Part shown: positions 1,980 through 56,092 of the stretch, piece by piece | Layout of the letters: every line of letters starts with the position of its first letter | Numbering within the stretch: position 1 is the stretch's first letter | From: a virus | Direction: 5' to 3' (one strand) | DNA length: 56,092 nt | Virus record (IMG/VR): IMGVR_UViG_3300021959_000049 | Coordinates: 1 to 56,092 of that record | Program-made: the position numbers and the translations under genes | The notes under the pieces: generated by a model | The model's database searches: none | What the model was told of the DNA's origin: nothing | The model's input: only the letters and a program-made list of their open reading frames with translations

Positions 1980-2105
1980 CTAGAGACTCAGATCGATCCA
2001 CAGGGCCAGGACTAGCAGACCTAGTTCCCAACCCAGGAGGCCGAACATCAGGACGATTGCTGCGTCAGGCGCGATATCTGCTACCTGACTAAGGAACTTG
2101 ATCAC
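1980..2105 (-). CDS. Small membrane protein, 41 aa
   Basis: The GTG at 2105 overlaps the stop of the ribbon-helix-helix gene (GTGA), indicating translational coupling. Residues 15-37 form one strongly hydrophobic helix (AAIVLMFGLLGWELGLLVLA). The function is unknown; single-helix phage membrane proteins of this size can be lysis or exclusion factors, but nothing here decides that. Confidence 0.6.
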   Translation of the reverse strand: MIKFLSQVADIAPDAAIVLMFGLLGWELGLLVLALWIDLSL

Positions 2106-2293
2106 TTCAGCAGACCTTTCTCCTCAATCCAGTTCTCAATCAAGTCCTGAATGATCTTGTTACGGCTGATCTGGTTGCGATGCGCATAGTCATCTAGCGG
2201 GTCCATCATGAACCGTGGCATACGCACCTGAAACTTCAGGCGGTCTTCCCACTGCTCGCGGGTCTTCGGTGCTGGGTACGTCTTCTTGCTCAT
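2102..2293 (-). CDS. Ribbon-helix-helix (Arc/MetJ-type) DNA-binding protein, 63 aa
   Basis: Residues 19-60 fit the Arc-like fold: a beta strand (FQVRMPRF), then helix A (DPLDDYAHRNQ) and helix B (SRNKIIQDLIENWIEE). Proteins of this fold bind as dimers and often occupy tandem short operator boxes; MetJ uses 8-bp boxes. That makes this gene one candidate reader of the 8-bp TTC arrays near 8.7 and 9.7 kb (inference). The ATG overlaps the preceding stop (ATGA). Confidence 0.85.
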   Translation of the reverse strand: MSKKTYPAPKTREQWEDRLKFQVRMPRFMMDPLDDYAHRNQISRNKIIQDLIENWIEEKGLLK

Positions 2294-5015: not shown

Positions 5016-5044
5016 AGTATACCACAATGCGCCACGTTGCGCAA
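5016..5044 (-). promoter_or_regulatory. Promoter P1 with embedded inverted repeat
   Basis: On the minus strand: TTGCGC, 17 bp, TATACT. A perfect 7-bp inverted repeat (CCACGTT 5032-5038, AACGTGG 5044-5050) covers the -35, which suggests a repressor site. Its core resembles the palindrome in promoter P2. Confidence 0.7.
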
Positions 5045-5940: not shown

Positions 5941-6429
5941 CTATCCTTGGTAGAAGGTCTGGTCGTCCATGTTCGGCCACCAGTAGCTTGGCTCCTGATC
6001 GGGCGCAGGACACGGCTCGTCGAAGAACGGATCGTAGTGGTCGGGCAGCTTCCACATCAGCTTGAGCCGATGCGACTCGTGGAACTTGGGTTCGCCGAGC
6101 CACCACGGATCTTCGGCGGCAAAGCTGAAGCGACCCTGGTGCTGCAAGATGGCGTCGAATCGGTGCAGCCACTCGCTGCACTTCGTGTTGTCGTAGCCGC
6201 GACGTTCCCACTCGTCGCACATCGCGGAAACGTACCAGAACAACGAGGGTTCGTAGCCACGCCACATTCGTGTGGCTGGGTGGTTGGACCAGCCGGAAGG
6301 CGACTGGGGATCGGGATCAAGAAGCGCGTTCATGATCTGGACACCTTCGACTCGTTGTTTGCCGAGCCGTTGGCGATCAAGCACTGCTGCACTTTCGAAG
6401 AAGTCAGCGTGCGGGAGGAAGGTTTGCAT
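5941..6429 (-). CDS. MSMEG_6728-type protein (related to pyrimidine-dimer DNA glycosylase fold)
   Basis: The sequence MQTFLPHADFFESAAVLD, then RLGKQRVE near residue 25, WSNHPATRMWRGYE near 50, CDEWERRGY near 75 and a C-terminal HESHR...YWWP follow the MSMEG_6728 family of Actinobacteria. Pfam places that family near pyrimidine-dimer glycosylases. A role in base excision or damage binding is inferred, not shown. The start at 6429 follows AGGAACC, with promoter P2 just upstream. Confidence 0.8.
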   Translation of the reverse strand: MQTFLPHADFFESAAVLDRQRLGKQRVEGVQIMNALLDPDPQSPSGWSNHPATRMWRGYEPSLFWYVSAMCDEWERRGYDNTKCSEWLHRFDAILQHQGRFSFAAEDPWWLGEPKFHESHRLKLMWKLPDHYDPFFDEPCPAPDQEPSYWWPNMDDQTFYQG

Positions 6430-6464
6430 TGATAGGTTCCTAACTATTAGCGGAGGGGAAACAG

Positions 6465-6494
6465 AGTATAGCACATTGACGCAATGTGCCGCAA
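6465..6494 (-). promoter_or_regulatory. Promoter P2 with embedded palindrome
   Basis: On the minus strand: TTGCGG, 18 bp, TATACT. The spacer holds an 8-bp inverted repeat (GCACATTG 6471-6478, CAATGTGC 6482-6489) whose core matches the one at P1, so both promoters may answer to one repressor. Confidence 0.7.
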
Positions 6495-8370: not shown

Positions 8371-8548
8371 GGTTCTCTCCTTAGTTGCCTTGGGTGCTGG
8401 AAGCACCCGGAACCAGACTGCCAGCACGGCAGCATGGAACCGGCTGTTGCCAGCAGGCAATGTCAGAACCAACTTCGTCTATTCAGTTTTCAAGTATCAA
8501 AGCCGCTGCGTTCGGGTGGTTCCAGCGGGGCTATGTGCGCCACTGAGA

Positions 8549-8577
8549 GTATACCGCACTGGGGCACGTTGCGCCAG
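8549..8577 (-). promoter_or_regulatory. Promoter P3
   Basis: On the minus strand: TGGCGC, 17 bp, TATACT. The sequence GCACGTTGCGC over the -35 matches P1. CACTGAGAG, just past the -10, recurs at P4. Confidence 0.65.
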
Positions 8578-8727
8578 TCACTTGAAGGGCGGGATGCTTC
8601 TGTAAAATTTCACGGGTTCGGGAGTTCCCCTGGGGCACAATGGGGCTTCGGCCTATAGGGAGGGGTTCCATAATTCATGAGAGGAGGAGGTCCAGGGTTC
8701 CACCGAGATATCCGGGGGATCCCCCTC

Positions 8728-8823
8728 TGTTCTTGAGTTCTGGTGTTCGTTAGTTCTTGACTTCTGCCCTTCGGGAGTTCTGGTGTTCGTGAGTTCTGTC
8801 ATTCGTCGGTTCTGGCGTTCGTG
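8728..8823. repeat. Octamer array 1: twelve consecutive 8-bp units with TTC core
   Basis: Read from 8728 in steps of eight, every unit has TTC at positions 3-5 (for example AGTTCTGG, TGTTCGTG, AGTTCTGT, CATTCGTC, GGTTCTGG, CGTTCGTG). Units mostly alternate between TTCT and TTCG, giving a weaker 16-bp period. Phase breaks after 8823 and resumes with three units at 8876-8899. It looks like a multi-site protein-binding array; the purpose is unknown. Confidence 0.8.
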
Positions 8824-8924
8824 TTCTTGCCCAGGGAAGCGAACCAACGAACCCTTGAAGGGAATCCGGTGATTGTGTTCGTCCGTTCATCGGTTCCATT
8901 TCTGCCTGACCGAACCACGGGCAG

Positions 8925-8956
8925 ACGAAAGCCCCACCAGCCGAAGCCAGTGGGGC
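8925..8956 (-). terminator. Hairpin terminator behind the gene 8986-9564
   Basis: A 7-bp stem GCCCCAC (8931-8937) with GTGGGGC (8950-8956), then TTTCGT on the minus strand. Confidence 0.6.
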
Positions 8957-8985
8957 TGTTCGCCCGGATCAGTTGTGGGTTGGAA

Positions 8986-9564
8986 CTAGCTCTTCAGCTC
9001 GGTGTAGAGCTTGACGAGGTTCGCCTTGCCCTTCGGCATGGCGCCTTCGTGGCCCATGGAGCGGATCGCCGCACGGAGAAGCGGCATGGACATGTTGGAC
9101 GGATCGGCCACCTGCGCGACCGCCGAATCCAACTTCGTGCCGGGGACCACTTCCACTCCGGTGCCCTGCCGTTCGGCTGCGTACAGCTCGGCGCCCTGTT
9201 CGTCGCCCCAGAACCGGCCGCCCTTTCCGGTTCGCGTGCCGACCGACTGGACGTTCGTGTAGCGCTCGAACAGCTTCCGGCAGTACGACTCGTTCAGGCA
9301 CAGGGTCGTGGCGATCTCGCCCCAGGACTGCTTCAAGTCGCGGAGTTCGGTGACCGCGACCGACTGGGTCGCTTCGGGCATTCCGCGCATGTCGTTGCAC
9401 TCGCCGTTCAGGGCCTTGATGGCCCACGTGACGAACTGCCATGCCGGGCTGTAGCTGACGCCTTCGGCCTTGTGGGCTTCGGCGAGTGGGGTTCCGTCCA
9501 GGACGGCTTCGAGGATGCTGTTCAGCGTTCCCTCGTCATATTTGGTGTTCAGGTAGAATTCCAC
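8986..9564 (-). CDS. Double helix-turn-helix protein, SWG family, 192 aa
   Basis: Paralogue of 10151-10732: by eye roughly half the residues match along the full length, including an identical SYSPAWQFVTW near residue 37 and TRTGKGGRFWGD near 114. Two helix-turn-helix-like units are visible (near 30-48 and SWGEIATTLCLNESYCRKLFE near 81-101). The last 25 residues are basic. The GTG at 9564 is taken as start because AAAGGCAACGAA precedes it and the paralogue begins at the same point with ATG (MEFYL). It stands alone between promoter P4 and its own terminator, flanked by octamer arrays on both sides. DNA binding is inferred. Confidence 0.85.
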   Translation of the reverse strand: MEFYLNTKYDEGTLNSILEAVLDGTPLAEAHKAEGVSYSPAWQFVTWAIKALNGECNDMRGMPEATQSVAVTELRDLKQSWGEIATTLCLNESYCRKLFERYTNVQSVGTRTGKGGRFWGDEQGAELYAAERQGTGVEVVPGTKLDSAVAQVADPSNMSMPLLRAAIRSMGHEGAMPKGKANLVKLYTELKS

Positions 9565-9614
9565 TTCGTTGCCTTTCGTGTAGTGGATCAGGGGCGCACT
9601 GCGCGCCCACTGAG

Positions 9615-9643
9615 AGCCTACCAGATAGGGCACTCCGCGGCAA
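9615..9643 (-). promoter_or_regulatory. Promoter P4
   Basis: On the minus strand: TTGCCG, 17 bp, TAGGCT, followed by the same CTCAGTG as after the P3 -10. Weaker -10 than P1-P3. Confidence 0.55.
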
Positions 9644-9677
9644 CTCACCGCGTTCGCCTGTTCCGGTAGGACAGCTT

Positions 9678-9867
9678 GGTTCTGCCCTTCGGGCAGTTAT
9701 GGGTTCGGGGGTTCTGTCGTTCGGTTCTGACAAAGTCGGACCCCGAAGGGCCTCCTTTCATTGGTTCCATTTCAGGGCAAGTTCTGACGGGTTGGTTCTG
9801 TCAAAACGAGCCCCGAAGGGACGTCTCCCTTCTAGGGTTCTGCCTTTCGGGGGTTCTGCCCTTCGGG
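9678..9867. repeat. Octamer array 2 (two clusters)
   Basis: Cluster one, 9678-9725, has six 8-bp steps, five with TTC at positions 3-5 (GGTTCTGC, CCTTCGGG, GGTTCGGG, GGTTCTGT, CGTTCGGT). Cluster two, 9836-9867, is four clean units alternating GGTTCTGC and C(C/T)TTCGGG. The segment TGCCCTTCGGGCA (9683-9695) can also fold as a small hairpin. Same design as array 1. Confidence 0.75.
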
Positions 9868-9898
9868 GGTGTTGGTTCTGTCATGTTCGAACCGGGGC

Positions 9899-9935
9899 AA
9901 AGAAAGACCCCGGTCGCCACTCGGACGCCGGGGTC
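9899..9935 (-). terminator. Rho-independent terminator behind the gene 9940-10053
   Basis: An 8-bp perfect stem GACCCCGG / CCGGGGTC (9906-9935) followed on the minus strand by TTTCTTTGC, the clearest intrinsic terminator of the left arm. Confidence 0.75.
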
Positions 9936-9939
9936 AGTC

Positions 9940-10053
9940 TCACTCGATGATTCCCTTCTCCTTGAGCTTCTTGCGGAGGACGCTGCTCACAAGGCTCGCC
10001 GTCAGGTAGCCGGCGACTTGGGAGGCCATCAGTTTCAGGTGGAGCTTCTTCAT
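9940..10053 (-). CDS. Small basic protein, 37 aa
   Basis: ATG behind AAAGGCAACTTC. The sequence is an amphipathic helix with a basic end (VSSVLRKKLKEKG). It sits between the hairpin at 10083-10115 and its own terminator, so it is a deliberate unit. The function is unknown. Confidence 0.65.
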   Translation of the reverse strand: MKKLHLKLMASQVAGYLTASLVSSVLRKKLKEKGIIE

Positions 10054-10082
10054 GAAGTTGCCTTTCGTAGATGGTAGGGGTA

Positions 10083-10115
10083 GGGACCCCGGCGATGTTG
10101 AGTCGCCGGGGTCCC
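10083..10115 (-). terminator. Strong 13-bp hairpin between two genes
   Basis: A perfect 13-bp stem GGGACCCCGGCGA / TCGCCGGGGTCCC with a 7-base loop, directly behind the SWG-family gene. There is no T run, so it may act as a partial terminator or RNA-stabilising end. Confidence 0.65.
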
Positions 10116-10150
10116 TGGGGGTGAGGCTCCGGTAGCGGTGCTTCCTGGGC

Positions 10151-10732
10151 TCAGTCGGTCAGGCTCGCGTAGAGCTTGATCAGCTCGTCCTTCTTACGGG
10201 GGAGCTTGACGTCGCCGTCGGAGAGGGCTCGGATGCTCGCCTTCAGGAGCGGGATGCTCATGTTGGCGGGATCCATGATGGCGCTCTTCGCGGAGGTGAG
10301 GTTGGTTCCGGGCGTCACGCTGACTCCCGTCCCCTGTCGCTCGTTCGCGTAGAGTTCCTGACCCTCGTCGTCTCCCCAGAAGCGACCACCCTTGCCAGTC
10401 CGGGTTCCGGTGGCTTGGATGTTCGTTGCCTGCTCGTAGGCCCGCCGGACGGCGGACTCGGAGATGCAGATCGTGGTCGCGATGTCGCCCCACGATTGCC
10501 CGTCCTTGCGGAGTCGGGCGACCGTGGAGTTGATCACGTCCTGCGGGAGGCCGCGGTGATCGTCGACGTTGCCGTCGGCGACCTTCGCGCTCCAGGTGAC
10601 GAACTGCCAGGCTGGGGAGTAGCTGATCCCGATCTCCTTGCGGGCCACCTCGAGGGTGACGCCGGAGAGGACCAGCTCGTTGACCGCCTCGAGCTCGCTG
10701 AGCTCGTAGCGGGTGGACAGGTAGAATTCCAT
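10151..10732 (-). CDS. Double helix-turn-helix protein, SWG family, 193 aa
   Basis: Close paralogue of 8986-9564 with the same start (MEFYLSTRYE), the same SYSPAWQFVTW, SWGDIATTICISESAVRRAYE and TRTGKGGRFWGD blocks, and a basic C-terminus. It is preceded by AGGATAG and a long leader from promoter P5 containing an 8-bp hairpin (10806-10826). Base composition here and in the leader appears richer in G+C than the replication genes, which could mark more recent arrival. Role in DNA binding is inferred. Confidence 0.85.
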   Translation of the reverse strand: MEFYLSTRYELSELEAVNELVLSGVTLEVARKEIGISYSPAWQFVTWSAKVADGNVDDHRGLPQDVINSTVARLRKDGQSWGDIATTICISESAVRRAYEQATNIQATGTRTGKGGRFWGDDEGQELYANERQGTGVSVTPGTNLTSAKSAIMDPANMSIPLLKASIRALSDGDVKLPRKKDELIKLYASLTD

Positions 10733-11098
10733 GATTCTATCCTCAGGTTGCTCCGGTGACCAGGAAGTCTGGTCAGCGGCCGAATGCGATGCACTCGGTG
10801 CCAGTGACCCGCAACTTGTGCGGGTCGCTCGCAGCGGGCGCATCGCGCCACCGGAGCCTCGTGTCTCTGCTGTTGTCAAGTAACCGCGCCCCCTCGGGGG
10901 TACCCCGAGTCTACCCCCTAGGGCACCGAAGGGCAACCTCCGTAACGACATCGACACACAACCGCAACATTTGACATGGGCCGACGTGCCGTCTGCCTGA
11001 TCAAGCCGAGATCTCGCCCAACTTCGCCCCCTTCTCTGCCACCGACCGCACAGGATCTCCAAGTAGCAAACAGGAACTCAGTTTGACTGCATTAGGAA
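10733..11098. other. 366-bp gene-free leader and promoter region
   Basis: Holds promoter P5, a 200-base leader with a stable hairpin GACCCGCA / TGCGGGTC (10806-10826), a 7-bp inverted repeat TGACCAG / CTGGTCA (10757-10775), and unassigned sequence up to the end of the RuvC-like gene. No gene is supported. Confidence 0.6.
10908..10936 (-). promoter_or_regulatory. Promoter P5
   Basis: On the minus strand: TTGCCC, 17 bp, TAGACT. Same layout as P4. It would give a leader of about 170-180 bases before the ATG at 10732. Confidence 0.5.
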
Positions 11099-11593: not shown

Positions 11594-11689
11594 TTACACT
11601 CAGTGTATACACAGAATCACTCTTGGGGAGAATTGCACTCCCTAACTCCACTACATTCACACAGTCTGTCGTGTATACGCTGAGTGTAG
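11594..11689. promoter_or_regulatory. Inverted pair of 17-bp dyad elements at the divergent region
   Basis: TTACACTCAGTGTATAC (11594-11610) and GTATACGCTGAGTGTAG (11673-11689) are inverted copies of one element. Its core TACACTCAGTGTA is a 13-bp dyad with one central base. Dyad centres are 81 bp apart. The left copy points at the RuvC-like gene, the right one at the late block. The element may combine an extended -10 (GTATAC) with an operator. No gene lies in 11576-11825. Confidence 0.7.
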
Positions 11690-13053: not shown

Positions 13054-13612
13054 TCCACTCAACTCTCCGCTTAGTTTCTTCTTGAACCATGTAGTAGATC
13101 CAGACCGTGCTTATGCGATCTTTGCAGAGGGCGTAGATACCTGCCTGCCCAAGAACCCAGATGTTCACACTCAGGGGTATCCTGCGTTCTACATGACAAT
13201 GCAGTGGACTGAACCCAACCCGGCCTGGCAGGGCTGGCAGATTCAGACGAGTTGCATCCGCAACGAGGATTGCCAGTTCTGTGTCAATCCTTACCACTCA
13301 CGCTTGAACAAGCTAGAGCGTGCGCCGAAGTCTAGGCAGGTCTACCGGGGTAGCTGGGAAGACTGGCTCGAATGGGAATACGAAGAAGAGTACCCCGACA
13401 GGCAGGCGCTGTTCGTTGCCTGTCTTGAGGGTGACATTCCAGCATTTGCAAACGTCTACACGCTAGCTCAGTACCGGAGGCAACATGCCGAAGCCGAGGG
13501 ACCGACGGGAATCCTCTACAAACCAAGAACAGCAAACCAAGCCTTTAGGCGTTGGGAAGGCAAGCAAGTCTCCCAAACCTACGGCACGGGAAGTGGTGAA
13601 ACTGAGCGATGA
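13046..13612 (+). CDS. Possible HNH-like protein, 188 aa
   Basis: The stretch SCIRNEDCQFCVNPYHSRL near residue 75 resembles the C..C.NP.H part of HNH endonucleases that often sit next to terminase genes. I do not see a clear first His of the HNH triad, so activity is uncertain. ATG behind AAAGGAAA, overlapping the preceding stop. Its last 128 bases overlap the small-terminase frame. Confidence 0.6.
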   Translation: MGSPLNSPLSFFLNHVVDPDRAYAIFAEGVDTCLPKNPDVHTQGYPAFYMTMQWTEPNPAWQGWQIQTSCIRNEDCQFCVNPYHSRLNKLERAPKSRQVYRGSWEDWLEWEYEEEYPDRQALFVACLEGDIPAFANVYTLAQYRRQHAEAEGPTGILYKPRTANQAFRRWEGKQVSQTYGTGSGETER

Positions 13613-14318
13613 AGAACGATTCGAATATCAACTGCCAGAGCATTTGCTTAACCGACCACTACTGCCACCTGAACAACGCTGCGAAGGTACTAGCAGATAT
13701 GGCACACAGTGCAGAAAACCGAAAGGCTATGGAACAGCTAATCCAGGCGTTGGATTCTGCAAGTATCACAGCGGAACCAGACAGGCCCACGTCGACAAAC
13801 TCTTCAGGGAATACATTGTGAGCACATACGGAGACCCAGTAGATATCGACCCGCAGGAAGCCTTGCTGCTGGAAGTGCAGCGCACGGCTGGACACGTAGA
13901 GTGGATGCGCCAACTCATCAACAGCTTTGGCGAAGCAGCCGAGAGTCGTGAAGAGCCTGGCGGTAGTGAGAACGCATTGGCGCAGTGGAGCCCTACCCTC
14001 GGACTTGCCCCGAGTGTCTGGTTGCAGATCTACCAAGAAGAGCGCAAGCATTTGGTTCGAGCTAGCCAGGCTGCCATCAGTGCAGGTGTGAGCGAGCGTC
14101 GTGTGCGCGTCATGGAAGAGCAGGCCCGCCAGATGGCCATGATCTTCAAGGCATTCCTGATGCACAATGAGATGAACTTCACTCCGGCTCAGCGCTTGGT
14201 AGCACCGAAGATCATTCGTGAACTTATCCAGACTGACGCACTTGAACTTGAGGCGCGCACTACCGCAGGCAACATGTTCGAAGGCATTGAGGTAACCGGT
14301 GAAGAGCTTGACGGATGA
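13485..14318 (+). CDS. terS: Terminase small subunit-like protein, 277 aa
   Basis: A basic, low-complexity N-terminus (residues 1-40) is followed by a zinc-like motif RCEGTSRYGTQCRKP ... FCKYHSG (residues 65-97), then DPQEALLLEVQRTAGHVEWM near 122, the pattern of small-terminase proteins of many actinophages. A helical C-terminal region for oligomer formation follows. A strong GGAGG five bases before the ATG at 13485 supports this start despite the 128-base overlap with the upstream gene. Confidence 0.75.
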   Translation: MPKPRDRRESSTNQEQQTKPLGVGKASKSPKPTAREVVKLSDEERFEYQLPEHLLNRPLLPPEQRCEGTSRYGTQCRKPKGYGTANPGVGFCKYHSGTRQAHVDKLFREYIVSTYGDPVDIDPQEALLLEVQRTAGHVEWMRQLINSFGEAAESREEPGGSENALAQWSPTLGLAPSVWLQIYQEERKHLVRASQAAISAGVSERRVRVMEEQARQMAMIFKAFLMHNEMNFTPAQRLVAPKIIRELIQTDALELEARTTAGNMFEGIEVTGEELDG

Positions 14319-55718: not shown

Positions 55719-56092
55719 TCATCGAGCCGTGATCTTTGCGATATCGCCCTGCTCGAGACCCCACTCGTCGCCATCGGCGTCGGTGATCTCGAACATGCCA
55801 TTGGATTCTGCCACCATGACCGCCTTGAGCTTGTCGCCATCGGTCGTGTGAACGAACTTGTTGACCATCGCCTTGACGAGTTCGTCAGCAGTCATTTCGC
55901 TGACATTGGCCGGTGCCTTCTTGGCAGGGGCCTTCTTGGCGGGTGCCTTGGCTGCCTTCTCCTTGACGGGCTCAGCCTTCTCGCCAGCACGACGACCACC
56001 ACGCAGGACATTGTCGATCTCGCCACCATTACCGAAGTAGATGGAGCGGGCCTTGATCTCACCAATAGCGCCACGACCAAGGCCCGCTCCAT
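55719..56092 (-). CDS. Double helix-turn-helix protein, C-terminal part (continuation of 1-373)
   Basis: This part encodes the linker with repeated Lys-Ala-Pro units (KAAKAPAKKAPAKKAPA, like histone H1-type tails) and a C-terminal small domain (TADELVKAMVNKF ... DGDEWGLEQGDIAKI) that may be an SH3-like fold. Bases 55958-56083 repeat 1-126. The last 9 bases break the frame seen at 127-135 and are not genuine. Confidence 0.8.
   Translation of the reverse strand, partial: GAGLGRGAIGEIKARSIYFGNGGEIDNVLRGGRRAGEKAEPVKEKAAKAPAKKAPAKKAPANVSEMTADELVKAMVNKFVHTTDGDKLKAVMVAESNGMFEITDADGDEWGLEQGDIAKITAR
55958..56083. repeat. Direct repeat of the contig start, right copy
   Basis: Identical to 1-126. Merge the two copies to obtain the closed circle of about 55,957 bp. 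Confidence 0.9.
56041..56092. repeat. Terminal inverted repeat (fold-back end)
   Basis: The final 12 bases GGCCCGCTCCAT are the reverse complement of 56041-56052, with a 28-base loop. The sequence at 127 onward differs from 56084-56092, so a fold-back chimera at the contig end is the likely cause. Confidence 0.7.

Follow-up and report, generated by a model that had tools for sequence, protein, structure and literature searches.

This locus raises the question of what the intergenic runs of 8 bp units with a fixed TTC core do, and which protein would read them. The window, meaning the whole stretch of DNA that was analysed, corresponds to a virus record 56,092 bases long. Bases 1-126 are repeated at 55958-56083, and the map therefore closes at ∼55.96 kb (about 55,957 bp); the few bases at the very end resemble a fold-back artefact. 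Judged from its sequence, the virus belongs among actinophage-like siphophages: the major head protein matches Gordonia/Mycobacterium phage capsids at 33-35% identity, and the DnaE-type polymerase shows ∼45% identity with the enzymes of Arthrobacter phage Wollypog, of Streptomyces phages such as Wentworth and of Krampusvirus-type Microbacterium phages. A DnaE search of viral_contigs returned no closer relatives. The arrays sit close to the beginning of a leftward gene block that runs from 11.5 kb to 1 and then over the closure from 56 to 41 kb. The same block holds, at 5941-6474, a pyrimidine dimer DNA glycosylase (Pyr_excise, E 4e-22). The array units are distributed as follows.

8607-8630, plus strand: three octamers on the promoter side (TTC at 8609, 8617 and 8625)
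8664-8703, plus strand: isolated units in 8 bp phase with the main array (TTC at 8666, 8674 and 8698)
8728-8823, plus strand: main array of 12 contiguous octamers, NNTTCNNN (TTC starts at 8730, 8738 ... 8818, each 8 bp)
8838-8861, minus strand: three inverted octamers (GAA at 8841, 8849 and 8857)
8876-8899, plus strand: three octamers adjoining the SWG1 terminator (TTC at 8878-8894)
9651-9666, plus strand: two octamers (TTC at 9653 and 9661) that end ∼8 bp upstream of the -35 element of the predicted SWG1 promoter
9678-9725, plus strand: six octamers, five of them with TTC (9680-9720)
9755-9770, plus strand: two octamers (TTC at 9757 and 9765)
9828-9867, plus strand: five contiguous octamers (TTC at 9830-9862, 8 bp step)

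The initial annotation had described 8728-8823 as an unbroken row of twelve octamers, each with TTC at positions 3-5, and TTC is indeed found there 12 times at an exact 8 bp step. The three units at 8876-8899 obey the same rule, the inverted units that it mentioned are present at the GAA positions given above, and all runs are intergenic, as claimed. Two of its runs needed correction. In 9678-9725 five of the six octamers fit, while the third, CAGTTATG, violates the TTC rule; the run given as 9836-9867 keeps to the rule, yet it really starts at 9828 and has five units, one above the earlier listing. The units at 8609/8617/8625, 8666/8674, 8698, 9653/9661 and 9757/9765 had not been listed. The units have the asymmetric pattern NNTTC[TG]NN, direct and inverted units are both present and the 8 bp phase is maintained over gaps. 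The segment 9753-9773 is 90% identical to 8882-8902.

The runs stand apart from shuffled sequence. In 200 dinucleotide-preserving shuffles of the whole window, scanned on both strands, runs of four units occurred 0.005 times per shuffle and none was longer, compared with one run of 12 and one of five in the window itself. In the two intergenic regions we observed 17 and 9 pairs of TTC at lag 8, against shuffle means of 0.43 and 0.38 and maxima of 4 and 3 (2,000 local shuffles per intergenic region). When all trinucleotides are ranked at lags of 4-40 over the two spacers, TTC at lag 8 comes first with 25 pairs, and no other trinucleotide reaches at least five units in the window (periods 4-30, multiples of 3 excluded). 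The units had also been said mostly to alternate TTCT with TTCG. This alternation is present and exceeds expectation (p 0.04), and units are more similar at lag 2 (2.47 of five free positions) than at lag 1 (1.55; p 0.02), but the effect is statistically weak and the array opens with the order T-T-G-T-T-G, which interrupts the 16 bp superperiod once. It is a hint of a 16 bp superunit, not proof, and thereby a hint of a reader whose two DNA-binding modules are similar.

The surroundings of the arrays comprise the following genes and predicted signals.

2102-2293, minus strand: P0003, RHH/Arc-like, 63 aa, the reader favoured by the initial annotation
8548-8576, minus strand: predicted promoter of the operon below 8472 (weak -35 TGGCGC at 8571-8576, -10 TATACT at 8553-8548)
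8930-8957, minus strand: predicted intrinsic terminator after SWG1 (12 bp stem, TTCG loop, then TTCGTC)
8986-9564, minus strand: SWG1 (P0001), 192 aa, two predicted HTHs, candidate array reader
9615-9643, minus strand: predicted SWG1 promoter (TTGCCG-17-TAGGCT)
9899-9935, minus strand: predicted intrinsic terminator after the small ORF 9943-10056 (stem, then TTTCTTT)
9943-10056, minus strand: small ORF, 37 aa, between SWG2 and the terminator
10151-10732, minus strand: SWG2 (P0002), 193 aa, two predicted HTHs, candidate array reader
10908-10936, minus strand: predicted SWG2 promoter (TTGCCC-17-TAGACT), with no adjoining array

The promoters are consensus matches only. On the minus strand the SWG1 terminator hairpin reads AGCCCCACTGGC-TTCG-GCTGGTGGGGCT-TTCGTC, with a fold of -33 kcal/mol for 8915-8965 (z -4.75), and that of the small ORF reads GACCCCGGCGTC...ACCGGGGTC-TTTCTTT, with -26.1 kcal/mol for 9893-9942 (z -3.95). 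The arrays fill both of the spacers that separate a predicted terminator from the leftward promoter predicted after it (8930 to 8576 and 9906 to 9643), where octamers with an 8 bp neighbour cover 184 of 340 bp and 112 of 251 bp (45-54%). No array adjoins the predicted SWG2 promoter at 10936 or the similar one at 5023, so arrays accompany two of at least four such promoters. Their position between predicted terminator and promoter suggests that the pattern is probably a DNA element beside promoters and not an RNA element.

The predicted promoters themselves share sequence. A 16-nt element, CCACTGAGAGnnTACC (plus strand), is common to the predicted SWG1 promoter and 8540-8555, and the promoter at 8548-8576 is similar to GCGCAACGTG...GGTATACTC at 5023. 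The minus strands at 5023 and 8555 have GCGCAACGTGsCsCAkTGyGGTATACTC in common, a likeness that suggests a common phage promoter or operator. A 15 bp operator- or promoter-like motif, ACACTCAGCGTATAC, is found at 11596, 11673, 11791, 53228 and 53304. When up to three mismatches are allowed it has nine matches in the window, where 1.2 would be expected; the best copies are in intergenic promoter regions, and a diverged one lies at 8540-8554. In the gap between SWG2 and the 37 aa ORF the minus strand of 10060-10125 contains a very strong 14 bp hairpin (z -5.75) that lacks a T-run and may function in processing or stability.

That the arrays are bound by a protein, as had been proposed, is the best explanation for a fixed core with free flanks, for the presence of both orientations and for the placement between terminator and promoter. 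From the observed arrays and the predicted architecture around them we infer cooperative direct-repeat operators next to promoters, with an SWG protein as the likeliest reader, a reading to which we give about an even chance. The arrays would act in cis as DNA elements in which one 8 bp unit is one contact site with TTC as its core. The reader would bind side by side and head to tail along the spacer, and once bound would repress or activate two leftward promoters, that of SWG1 and that of the operon starting at ∼8472. It would most likely be one of the two adjacent double-HTH proteins, each monomer of which perhaps spans a 16 bp TTCT/TTCG pair.

SWG1 and SWG2 are 53% identical. AlphaFold models of both (two runs, one per protein, on a single two-sequence alignment) agree in placing two tri-helical HTHs near residues 11-52 and 64-103. 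The mean pLDDT reaches only 66, with a better score for the C-terminal helical domain. SWG2 has a weak match to HTH_23. No SWG relatives were found in phages, plasmids, viral_contigs (IMG/VR) or genome_contigs (GTDB), collections that may omit very near records, and the sole peptide-pattern match, in contig L165, is a chance hit out of frame context. Neither a sequence search against solved structures nor fold searches with the weak models (pLDDT 66) gave a match. The SWG genes have 64-65% GC compared with 56% for the genome and have predicted promoters and terminators of their own, much as a moron-like insertion would. We prefer an SWG protein as reader because the genes adjoin the arrays and two HTHs would suit a 16 bp pair. 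It is possible rather than probable that the SWG proteins form a new double-HTH family that polymerizes head to tail on a degenerate octamer code beside its own promoters, with one monomer per 16 bp pair.

Direct-repeat arrays beside genes for DNA-binding proteins are also typical of iteron origins and parS/parC sites, so the octamers could serve an SWG or another protein as iterons of a replication origin or as a site for partition or packaging. The probable lack of transcription through the array region fits such a role. Against an origin, which GC skew and AT content leave unsupported, the spacers have 56-60% GC with no AT-rich unwinding stretch, and the extremes of cumulative GC skew lie at 3.3 and 40.7 kb. 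A partition site is opposed by the lack of a ParA/ParM partner among the proteins scanned, and a packaging site by the possible small-terminase gene (13485-14318), which is close to TerL instead. We regard this group of functions as unlikely.

A neutral minisatellite, in which slippage created 8 or 16 bp tandem copies that are now decaying, would account for the 16 bp and 24 bp repeats reported by Tandem Repeats Finder and recalls the more regular TTC-containing octamer tandems in many viral contigs. Mismatches to the consensus of the 12-unit array number 7, 3, 0, 0, 0, 5, 6 and 4 per column: TTC is invariant in 12 of 12 units and the other columns are near random. Under random placement of mismatches three adjacent mismatch-free columns have P ∼5.5e-6, an approximate value because the test assumes independent units, which tandem copies strictly are not; applied to the 5-unit array, the test yields just 0.03. 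That mismatches shun the TTC columns argues against the plain decay of a tandem repeat, as do the same core in separate arrays of two spacers, the inverted units and the phase that survives gaps. A neutral origin therefore seems rather unlikely.

Contigs L057, L087, L091, L104 and L145 carry intergenic 8 bp arrays, several per contig in most, for example GTTCTTGN and ATTTCGNN, with inverted pairs in L091 and GAA mostly on the sense strand. Most of these arrays are more regular than the present ones and sit largely between co-directional genes, with no visible connection to this virus. The exact 4-unit GTTCTG/TTCG pattern occurs in just one viral contig, L164, as a short exact tandem; that contig has 38% GC and gives no sign of kinship. 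Because the TTC-cored octamer arrays of unrelated viral contigs are for the most part more regular and are found within gene clusters, they do not demonstrate a common cause. Distant relatives of the virus (466 kb around terminase relatives, and two polymerase relatives) lack comparable arrays, no trinucleotide reaching at least six units at any period of 5-20 except multiples of 3.

The initial annotation had favoured P0003, whose ribbon-helix-helix dimers would coat the octamers in the manner of MetJ. Met boxes are palindromic and follow each other at an 8 bp tandem step; the step is the same here, whereas NNTTC[TG]NN is asymmetric, so that step size alone fits. Small Arc-like proteins are common in phages, and the matches of P0003 to RHH_1/Arc/BrnA-type families, though in favour of this assignment, are weak. 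Its gene is separated from the arrays by ∼6.4 kb and none occurs near the gene itself, and the protein shows no tie to TTC. RHH proteins such as omega do bind 7 bp asymmetric repeats in direct and inverted orientation (PMC9499535). We nevertheless consider P0003 a quite improbable reader and an SWG protein the better, though unproven, candidate.

An RNA-level element, with the GAA(C)-rich repeats of a leftward transcript bound by an RNA-binding protein, appears very unlikely. RNA from the minus strand of the main array would be unstructured (z +1.47), 9674-9942 folds well (z about -3) and GAA mostly occupies the sense strand in the octamer arrays of several other phages. Both spacers, however, fall outside the predicted transcripts, and little transcription is expected between a predicted intrinsic terminator and the promoter that follows it. 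Rfam gave no match above any family's gathering score, and UUCG-tetraloop hairpins account for a few TTCG units (9684-9693 and 8766-8775), not for the phase. Finally, GAAC/GTTC is the actinobacterial LexA half-site and GTTCA-like 11 bp repeats form Streptomyces PhoP boxes, but a decoy or site for a host regulator of either type is scarcely credible and largely refuted by spacing, as the region contains neither the LexA SOS box GAACN4GTTC nor an 11 bp PhoP-type periodicity.

By analogy, the arrays may work like the omega-heptad, BldC or stoperator systems, although they fit neither the omega nor the BldC type in unit length or core, and no homologue of the proteins turned up. Omega, the RHH ParB of pSM19035, binds 7-10 contiguous heptads in parS that overlap promoters (PMC9499535). 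Shared with our arrays are short contiguous asymmetric units, direct and inverted, at promoter regions (PMC9499535), whereas omega reads 7 bp WATCACW and has a ParA partner and here the step is 8 bp with TTC alone fixed. BldC of Streptomyces, a MerR-like protein of 68 aa, forms head-to-tail filaments on 9 bp AATTNNNNC direct repeats (PMC5859096). It comes from an actinobacterium and likewise uses asymmetric direct repeats in variable number (PMC5859096), but the octamers are not 9 bp AATTNNNNC units and none of the proteins scanned is of BldC type. The immunity repressor of cluster A mycobacteriophages (∼181 aa) has two DNA-binding domains and binds an asymmetric site as a monomer; the SWG proteins are similar in size and layout, while its 13 bp sites are scattered over the genome and the octamers are contiguous (PMC9283540). 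Beggiatoaceae and cyanobacteria also have short intergenic direct-repeat arrays, made of TAACTGA heptamers and present as 169 sets in one of the genomes, which differ in having uniform 7 bp units just upstream of start codons (PMC4679880).

Few bacterial regulators read long direct-repeat arrays. If the SWG proteins do form filaments on the octamers, this would be a phage regulatory filament unlike those of the RHH or MerR types, and three fixed bases per octamer would show the minimal sequence need when cooperativity supplies the rest. The array also offers a convenient assay for this orphan family of phage proteins.
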